Source: Candidatus Gastranaerophilales bacterium (lineage in GTDB: Bacteria > Cyanobacteriota > Vampirovibrionia > Gastranaerophilales > Gastranaerophilaceae). Taken from it: a stretch of DNA of 38,141 nt. Shown in pieces: positions 15,847 to 20,914 of the stretch; the first letter of the stretch is position 1, and every line of letters starts with the position of its first letter. The notes under the pieces were generated by a model. The model saw only the letters and a list, made by a program, of their open reading frames with translations, made no database searches and was not told the origin of the DNA. The stretch covers positions 1 to 38,141 of the forward strand of contig CALUQI010000006.1 in NCBI GenBank assembly GCA_944322875.1. The letters are read 5' to 3'. Made by a program: the position numbers and the translations under genes.

Positions 15847-17049
15847 ATGAAAAAATCAATTAAAGATTTAAATGACATCCAAGGAAAAAAAGCACTTGTT
15901 AGAGTGGATATTAATGTTCCATTGGATGCTGACAAAAATGTGACAGATGACACAAGAATTCAAGCAATTCTTCCAACTGTTAATTATTTAAAAGAAAAAG
16001 GTGCTAAAATTATTCTTATGGCTCATCTTGGCAGACCAAAAGGTGAATGGAATAAAGAATTTTCTCTTGAACCTGTTGCAAAATATTTATCTAAAATTTT
16101 GAATGAAGAAGTTATTTTTGTTTCTACTCCTGTTGGAGAAGGAGCAGAAAAAGAATTAGAAAATCTGAAAAACGGACAAGTTGCATTACTTGAAAATATA
16201 CGTTTTTATAAAGCAGAAGAAGCAAAAGATGACGATATGACCTTTGCAAATGAACTTGCAAAACTCGGGGATTTTTATGTAAATGATGCATTCGGAGCTG
16301 CACACAGAAACCATACGTCTACTGCTAAACTGGCAAAAGTTTTAAAACCGGCGGTTTCAGGATTGTTAATGGAAAAAGAATTAAGATGTTTATCACAAGC
16401 CCTTGATAATCCTGCAAGACCATTTACTGCTGTTGTTGGAGGAGCAAAAGTTTCTTCTAAAATCGGTGTATTAGAAAACTTAATAGAAAAAGTTGATAAT
16501 CTTATCATTGGCGGTGGTATGGCCTATACTTTTGTAAAAGCAAACGGCGGAAAAATTGGTAATTCTATTTGTGAAGATGATCAACTTGATGTTGCAAAAA
16601 TGATTAAAAAAAAAGCTGCAGACTAAAGTGTAAATCTTGTTATGGCAACAGATGTATTAGTTACTGATGATTTTTCAGGAAACGGCACAAATAAATTTGT
16701 AAAAATTAACGAGATTCCTGACGGATTTGAAGGTGTTGATGCTGGCCCTGATTCAAGAAAAGCTTTTGCTGATGTTTTAAAATCTTCAAAAACTATTTTG
16801 ATGAACGGTCCTGTCGGAGCTTTCGAAAATCCTGTTTTTGCAGAGGGAACTAAAGCTGTTCTTGATGCAATTATTGAAGCAACTGAAAATGGTGCCGTTT
16901 CTGTTATCGGTGGCGGAGATTCCGTTTCTGCTGCGAAAAAACTTTCAAATGCAGATAAATATACTCATGTTTCTACTGGCGGAGGAGCTTCTCTTGAATT
17001 TATAGAAGGCAAAGTTCTGCCCGGAGTTGCCGCTTTGGACAATAAATAA
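15847..17049 (+). pseudogene. pgk: Phosphoglycerate kinase interrupted by an in-frame TAA
   Basis: PGK makes ATP from 1,3-bisphosphoglycerate. Both halves are intact and in one frame. The first half (codons 1-259) has RVDINVP (19-25), Arg37, HLGRPKG (60-66), Arg119, NDAFGAAHR (146-154) and GGAKVSSK (198-205). The remainder has MNGPVGAFE and the nucleotide-site GGGDS. Codon 260, at 16624-16626, is TAA, lying between AAD and SVNLVMATDV, where PGKs usually have Lys or Glu followed by Gly-Val. No frameshift is needed: one nonsense substitution explains it. The break falls inside the nucleotide-binding domain, not between domains. An ATG six codons later (16642) could restart translation but lacks a ribosome binding site. 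Sequencing error, readthrough, or a genuine split or dead gene are all possible. There is a good promoter and terminator. Confidence 0.9.
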
Positions 17050-19387: not shown

Positions 19388-19792
19388 ATAAACCTCCTTT
19401 CTTTTTTATTACGACATTTTAATCAAAAAATTAAATAATTCATCCATTTGTAGTATTCGTGTAGAAAACCTGTGTTTTTTCTGTAGAAAACTTTGTGTTT
19501 TTCTACAGGTTCTTTTTTTTTGTTTTATTTTTCTACTCTGTTTTGTTTTTTTTTACTTTTTTTCTACATCTTTTTCTACATCTTTATTCCCTTTTATTTC
19601 TGTCTTTTTACTTGTTTTCTACAAATATTTCCGACTTATTATTACTATTATTTTTAAATATTATATTTATATAATATTTAATATAAAAAGTTTTGAACAA
19701 AAAGGTTAAATTTCATTAATTCAGTTTGTTTTCATATTGTTTTTATTATATTATTTAGAGTAGGGATTTTATTTATCAAGGAGTAGTAAATA
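19388..19792. other. Candidate chromosomal replication origin (oriC) with DnaA-box-like repeats
   Basis: This 405-base gene-free region directly precedes dnaN. The 9-mer TTTTCTACA occurs exactly six times. On the plus strand it lies at 19499-19507, 19560-19568, 19572-19580 and 19615-19623. On the minus strand (as TGTAGAAAA) it lies at 19460-19468 and 19482-19490. A seventh copy at 19529-19537 has one mismatch (TTTTCTACT). The boxes are followed by a roughly 60-base nearly pure A/T stretch (19636-19690), a plausible unwinding element. Known cyanobacterial DnaA boxes read TTTTCCACA, and origins there can lie next to dnaN. No dnaA is seen in this window. Strand composition flips at this point. 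Confidence 0.75.
19726..19754 (+). promoter_or_regulatory. Promoter of dnaN
   Basis: TTGTTT (19726-19731), a 17-base spacer and TATTAT (19749-19754) lie about 40 bases before the ATG, within the right end of the candidate origin. AAGGAG at about 19778 is the ribosome binding site. Confidence 0.5.
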
Positions 19793-20914
19793 ATGAAGTT
19801 TATTGTCAAAAAAGAAGATTTATTCAATGGTATAAAAATAGTAGAAAGAGCAACAAGTTTAAAAGCATTGCAGCCGGTATTTTTAAACATATTAATAGAA
19901 ACAATAGATAAAACAAAAGTAAGATTGGTTGCAACAGATTTGGATTTAACAGTAACGGCAGTAATAGAAGCGCAGGTAGAAGAAGAAGGGAAGATAACAT
20001 TACCTTCAAAGACATTGAATGAAATAGTTTCAAAATTGGGAAACAAACTAATAACATTAGAAATGAAAGAAGGCGAAAATACAGTAAACATAACCTGCCA
20101 AAATTCAAAATTTGACATAATCGGAATATCAGCAAGTGAATTCCCGCAAGAAGTTTATAATGTAGATTTAAAGGAAGAAGAAAGTCTTGAAATAGAATTA
20201 AAACCATTTGCAAAAGCAGTAAGACAAGCAGGTTTTGCAGCAGCAAGTTACGAAACAAGCAATCTATTATCAGGAATAGTGTGCGATATATCAGCACAAA
20301 TGTTGGAGATAGCGTCAACAGACGGTAATCGTTTGGCAAGAGTAAGAGAACATGTAGATAATAAAGACAATAAAACAAAACAGCTAATAATACCTGCAAA
20401 AGCTTTAAACGAATTCATAAAAATGAGTTCATACATAGATGAAGATTCAATAAAAATATACACACAAAAGACAAAAATAATAATAAAAACAGAAAAAACA
20501 ATGACAATATCAAGATTGTTGGAAGGCCAATTTCCAAAGTACAATCAACTAATACCTACAGAAAGTCCAAAAAAAGCAAAGGTAAATGTGTCACAAATGA
20601 TTTCTGCTTTGGAACGTGTTTCAATAATGGTAAATGAAAAGACAAGTATAGTAAAATTGAGTTTTGCAGACAATGAATTAACACTGAATGCAGATACACC
20701 GGATTCAGGAAAATCAGAAGAAAAGATTGATATAGAATATACTTCAGAACCTTTATTGATAGCATTTAATTATAAATACGTTTTAGAAGCATTAAAAAAT
20801 ATAGATTGTGAAGAAGTAATAATAGGATTAAATACAAGTCTTTCAGCAACAGTATTAAGACCGGATTGCGAAGAAGATTTTGTTTGTTTGATAATGCCGG
20901 TTCAAATACGATAA
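19793..20914 (+). CDS. dnaN: DNA polymerase III beta subunit (sliding clamp)
   Basis: The clamp encircles DNA as a dimer and gives the replicative polymerase processivity. The 373-residue length and the three-domain layout match the family: an N-terminal MKFIVKKEDL, RLVATDLDLTV near 43-53, ASTDGNRLAR near 174-183, and the terminal PVQIR. The hydrophobic cleft at the C-terminus that binds client proteins is therefore intact. AAGGAG lies about 9 bases before the ATG. Third positions are A-rich (GTA, ATA, GCA), in contrast with pgk-aroK-aroB on the same strand to the left. The gene ends 7 bases before the converging prepilin gene. Confidence 0.97.
   Translation: MKFIVKKEDLFNGIKIVERATSLKALQPVFLNILIETIDKTKVRLVATDLDLTVTAVIEAQVEEEGKITLPSKTLNEIVSKLGNKLITLEMKEGENTVNITCQNSKFDIIGISASEFPQEVYNVDLKEEESLEIELKPFAKAVRQAGFAAASYETSNLLSGIVCDISAQMLEIASTDGNRLARVREHVDNKDNKTKQLIIPAKALNEFIKMSSYIDEDSIKIYTQKTKIIIKTEKTMTISRLLEGQFPKYNQLIPTESPKKAKVNVSQMISALERVSIMVNEKTSIVKLSFADNELTLNADTPDSGKSEEKIDIEYTSEPLLIAFNYKYVLEALKNIDCEEVIIGLNTSLSATVLRPDCEEDFVCLIMPVQIR

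Follow-up and report, generated by a model that had tools for sequence, protein, structure and literature searches.

A probable chromosomal replication origin with altered DnaA boxes beside dnaN in Gastranaerophilales, and an accompanying change in DnaA

Background

Few protein-DNA pairs in bacteria are as strongly conserved as DnaA and its box. In a contig of Candidatus Gastranaerophilales bacterium, the region upstream of dnaN contains a cluster of the 9-mer TTTTCTACA, which departs from the canonical DnaA box. The locus raises two questions: is this the chromosomal replication origin (oriC), and has the initiator changed together with its site? A sequence-only reading of the same DNA had suggested both, proposing an origin with a C-to-T variant box in a non-photosynthetic lineage and guessing that domain IV of DnaA had changed to match. 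In this work, the window is the whole stretch of DNA that was analysed, 38,141 nucleotides, which constitutes contig C6 of a 1.49-Mb genome in 98 contigs. In the literature searched, we found no description of Melainabacteria DnaA boxes, nor of TTTTCTACA as a DnaA box; K433 (lysine at the position of E. coli residue 433) is likewise not described there in this lineage, which is not proof of absence.

The box array

An exact word match recovered the six perfect copies of TTTTCTACA that had been reported, four on the plus strand and two on the minus strand, within 164 bases (19460-19623; Table 1). In addition, the array contains the near-box TTTTCTACT, and several relatives carry an intact box in that part of the array. 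All six boxes have T, not C, at position 6 and thus do not follow the canonical pattern TTWTNCACA. Exact TTTTCCACA arrays, which were seen beside dnaN in outgroup classes and some cyanobacteria, are absent from the 500 bp preceding dnaN, both in the window's own genome and in the relatives scanned.

Across the genome, TTTTCTACA occurs 72 times, and a reversed control word also occurs 72 times, so that the word is at chance level outside the array; mapping the 72 copies revealed no second tight cluster elsewhere, which leaves the array as the only one. The idea that an A/T-rich spacer gave rise to the six repeats by chance or slippage, which the A/T content of the region (75-96%) might encourage, was rejected and deserves practically no credence, because TTTTCTACA appeared at most once in each of 5000 dinucleotide shuffles of the intergenic stretch and conservation is confined to the boxes and the trio run described below. 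In the same shuffles, no 9-mer with at least three letters exceeded four copies.

The array had also been described as ordered, with a 12-base pair at 19560/19572 and an inverted pair at 19460/19482. The first pair stands, but the boxes at 19460 and 19482 both lie on the minus strand and are therefore direct repeats; the real head-to-head pair is formed by 19482 (minus) and 19499 (plus). In many relatives this head-to-head pair (19482-19507) is a near-perfect palindrome, TGTAGAAAACTCATGAGTTTTCTACA, with the centre TCATGA, which has decayed in the window's own species. The palindromic pair may have a further ligand in addition to DnaA.

Table 1. Coordinates of the features in the presumed origin region (window positions; mean identities are for 16 genomes of the genus)
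Feature	Position	Strand	Evidence and remarks
DnaA box TTTTCTACA	19460..19468	-	exact match; mean identity 0.98
DnaA box TTTTCTACA	19482..19490	-	exact match; mean identity 0.92; box position 9 varies in the genus
DnaA box TTTTCTACA	19499..19507	+	exact match; mean identity 0.99; head-to-head with 19482
Near-box TTTTCTACT	19529..19537	+	sequence; 8/9 match
DnaA box TTTTCTACA	19560..19568	+	exact match; mean identity 0.98
DnaA box TTTTCTACA	19572..19580	+	exact match; mean identity 0.85, variable last letter; 12 bases after 19560
DnaA box TTTTCTACA, adjoining the unwinding module	19615..19623	+	exact match; invariant in 16 genus genomes
12-bp spacer, last box to trio run	19624..19635	+	sequence
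DnaA-trio run TTA TTA TTA CTA TTA TTT TTA	19636..19656	+	mean identity 0.90 in the genus
A/T-rich stretch, presumed DNA unwinding element	19636..19690	.	96% A/T
TTTTGAACA, second box type of the order	19691..19699	+	kept in most genus genomes
dnaN, sliding clamp	19793..20914	+	PF02768, E 3e-31, over cut-off

The unwinding region and dnaN

Origins with a basal unwinding system (BUS) have been defined by three or more DnaA-trios (3'-NAN-5') lying no further than 16 bp from a DnaA box, and the length of the spacer between box and trios peaks at 10-13 bp (PMC8287927). In the window, seven trios start at 19636, 12 bp past the box at 19615-19623, and the run is of the 3'-RAT-5' type on the opposite strand. 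The nearly pure A/T stretch followed by dnaN, as the sequence-only reading had it, is borne out by an A/T content of 98% at 19640-19689 and by the PF02768 match of the gene, whose orthologues are 84-88% identical in most genus genomes. Three genomes (G025, G119 and G130) each contain an extra, divergent DnaN-like gene.

Beyond the A/T-rich stretch lies a single copy of TTTTGAACA. This word is the main box of genera g6, g13 and g20, and the order therefore has at least three box types, with CT, GA or AT at positions 5-6.

Conservation and genomic position

Conservation of the boxes in relatives was one of the points on which the proposal had been staked, and the boxes are conserved: in the genus alignment against the window (16 genomes), they are 0.85-1.0 identical and the trio run 0.90, versus 0.50 for the remaining array. 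All 15 relatives from the same genus carry the array ahead of dnaN, as do many further genera of the family, some being without it there. The whole arrangement of array, 12-bp spacer, trio run, A/T-rich stretch and dnaN is maintained at the level of genus, family and order alike; where it occurs in other families, the trios are of textbook form, such as CTACTACTACT.

Because most genomes have the array immediately before dnaN, and DnaA is a transcription factor at DnaA boxes, one could also take the boxes for a control element through which DnaA or another repressor sets clamp expression, the origin being elsewhere. The exceptions in gene order speak against this. In genera g2 and g8 (L330, L331, L332, L333, L334 and L335), genes are inserted between the array and dnaN, separating them by 0.7-17 kb, and in five Gastranaerophilales loci (L216, L219, L275, L287 and L289) dnaN is absent from the 7-8 kb fetched around the array. 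Arrays that persist at such distances or with other neighbours are not merely a dnaN promoter or operator. In addition, the displaced arrays keep the trio and A/T-rich elements attached, and cumulative GC-skew minima coincide with the array. We thus consider control of dnaN alone quite improbable.

The skew minimum was a second point at which the origin could have been placed elsewhere, and in the two relatives G046 and G012 it lies within 0.1 and 2.5 kb, respectively, of the homologous array. In a 400-kb stretch of G046, from the same order, the minimum is at 262,798 and dnaN starts at 263,115, with the boxes in between; in a 255-kb contig of G012, from the same genus, the corresponding positions are 146,508 for the minimum and 143,831 for the start of dnaN. 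The skew of the window itself is too weak, and the 38-kb contig does not offer enough length, for a minimum to be located (12.5 kb for GC). In G125 (genus g8), the skew is flat around the displaced array.

The native dnaA gene is on a separate contig, C13; separation of dnaA from the origin and dnaN is usual in cyanobacteria (PMC7198777). Elsewhere in the window, the phosphoglycerate kinase gene (15847-17049) contains an in-frame TAA at 16624-16626 between otherwise contiguous halves, which may stem from misassembly, from variation between strains or from a genuine interruption of the gene.

Families f8 and f35 belong to another order of the class; in their dnaA-dnaN gap, boxes of the form TTWTCTACA and CTA trios occupy near-fixed sites, and no boxes were found upstream of dnaA. 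Locus L285 (titled Caenarcanales) has four TTTTCTACA ahead of dnaN. A wide scan for three TTTTCTACA in a row covered 84,980 species; among the matches listed, the loci with such arrays next to dnaN are all titled Gastranaerophilales, Melainabacteria, Scatousia, Cyanobacteria or Caenarcanales, or carry no title. The listed matches outside the lineage were rejected as origins, since they have no dnaN nearby and nearly all look like short-period repeats. Note that four genomes of the f8 order (G058, G164, G167 and G176; 87-92% complete) show neither dnaA domain IV nor dnaN domain 3, perhaps because their assemblies share a gap at the origin, or because of divergence.

Given that both the skew minima in two relatives and the conservation of the boxes support this, we are nearly certain that the stretch is oriC, the origin of chromosome replication.

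Box position 6 and DnaA domain IV

To count boxes across the phylum, origin stretches were scanned for TTWTNNACA. In 46 genomes of the order, whose DnaA has K433, position 6 is T in 231 boxes and A in 83; there are 5 boxes with G and 4 with C, where chance alone gives 4.5 with C. In 21 genomes of f8 and f35, the counts are T 44, A 11, C 9 and G 5 (C in 9/69), and in 18 genomes from the remaining phylum, with D433, C occupies position 6 in 81 of 89 boxes. The C-to-T variant supposed by the sequence-only reading is real, but it is older than was supposed and marks most of the class rather than one species.

The suspected counterpart in domain IV was also found. At the position of E. coli residue 433, all 53 tabulated DnaAs from the window's order and the order of f8 and f35 have K or R, and all 44 from the rest of the phylum have D; the 11 DnaAs of a third order (f9) all have T, and G017, a further genome of the window's order, has N. 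In an alignment to E. coli domain IV, R399, R407 and H434 are retained with few exceptions, and some parts of the class have further differences at residues 401, 415 and 423. Of the canonical residues Arg399, Asp433 and His434, the first and the last are present and D433 is replaced by K. In family f9, represented by L161 and L162, the T433 proteins are accompanied by hardly any recognisable boxes, and L161 has a perfect CTACTACTACTACTA run ahead of dnaN.

The native DnaA is full-length, and structurally it is closest to B. subtilis DnaA on the BUS (8btg). Its AlphaFold model has a confident domain IV in which the recognition helix starts from H429 (E. coli H434), so that K428, which corresponds to E. 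coli 433, immediately precedes this helix; the residue correspondence rests on the sequence alignment and on the start of the helix at residue 429 of the model. The base read by residue 433 is taken from secondary sources: DnaA residues 432-435 and 438-439, D433 among them, contact bases (PMC5043019), and the helix beginning at 434 reads TnCACA (PMC5742627). Since T or A at position 6 occurs together with Lys433 just before the recognition helix, protein and site have most likely changed together. In a DnaA tree built without domain IV, each of the four groups lies on one side of a branch, and a single change on one branch is thus sufficient.

A more serious alternative accepts the origin but regards residue 433 as incidental, the box having drifted with A/T-rich genomes and the lysine having no role at position 6. 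Many genomes here are indeed A/T-rich, both changes fall on one branch, further domain IV residues differ, and one paper pairs D433 with box position 7 rather than 6 (PMC8235120). Against this, the same source reports high conservation of D433 across bacterial classes; f8 and f35 still have CT as the main pair; and C is retained at positions 5 and 8 while it is lost at position 6, which drift alone does not fit. We regard the incidental reading as somewhat less likely than not. D433K and C6T probably represent one ancient change; having arisen once, they are not independent replicates, and their association is co-occurrence rather than proof of causation.

Our preferred reading is that K433 helps to read the changed box, for which we hold a fair degree of confidence. 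Plausibly, Lys433 swaps an acceptor for a donor beside position 6, where C with its amino group is replaced by T, or by a T-A pair, with a keto group. It is very likely that the explanation as a whole holds, namely an oriC with altered boxes that is bound by DnaA and in which protein and site changed together.

In such an origin, domain IV of DnaA would bind the TTTTCTACA boxes. The invariant box at 19615 would anchor a DnaA filament and set its register; the filament would extend across the 12-bp spacer to the trios, capture one strand and open the A/T-rich stretch towards dnaN, where the helicase would be loaded.

Comparison with known origins

As a DnaA-dependent oriC with BUS architecture, the locus belongs to a kind that is already known. 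It shares with the cyanobacterial origin (Synechococcus elongatus type, box TTTTCCACA), from the same phylum, a 9-mer array beside dnaN with dnaA elsewhere, but position 6 is T or A where the cyanobacterial box has C, and K433 takes the place of D433. As in B. subtilis BUS, whose DnaA complex gave the structural match above, a box is followed by a spacer within 10-13 bp, DnaA-trios and A/T-rich DNA; the differences are that the box departs from TTWTNCACA and that the trios in the window's own genus are mostly TTA, not CTA.

Lineage-specific boxes have precedents. Epsilonproteobacteria (Helicobacter pylori, box of the TTATTCACA type) also show a lineage-wide box shift with proposed matching changes in domain IV, which sit in helix 5 (PMC5043019); unlike the present case, in which position 6 changes and D433 is lost, they fix T at position 5 and keep residues 433-434. 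Thermotoga maritima has its own 12-mer box, AAACCTACCACC, and its domain IV contact residues are mostly not conserved (PMC7561715). There, the box has changed in both length and sequence, whereas the boxes described here stay within the 9-mer frame and differ chiefly at position 6.

Implications

It is an evenly balanced proposition that, in the ancestor of the class, charge reversal at residue 433 and a C-to-T/A change at position 6 switched the replicator-initiator code, with 433 acting as a specificity switch. If this is true, the DnaA of other bacteria would largely fail to read these origins, and vice versa. A lineage-wide change on both sides is a natural experiment in the evolution of an essential recognition code, and one that a single amino-acid swap can put to the test. 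For practical purposes, tools seeking TTATCCACA or TTTTCCACA could miss these origins, and TTTTCTACA provides a searchable box for these mostly uncultured gut bacteria.
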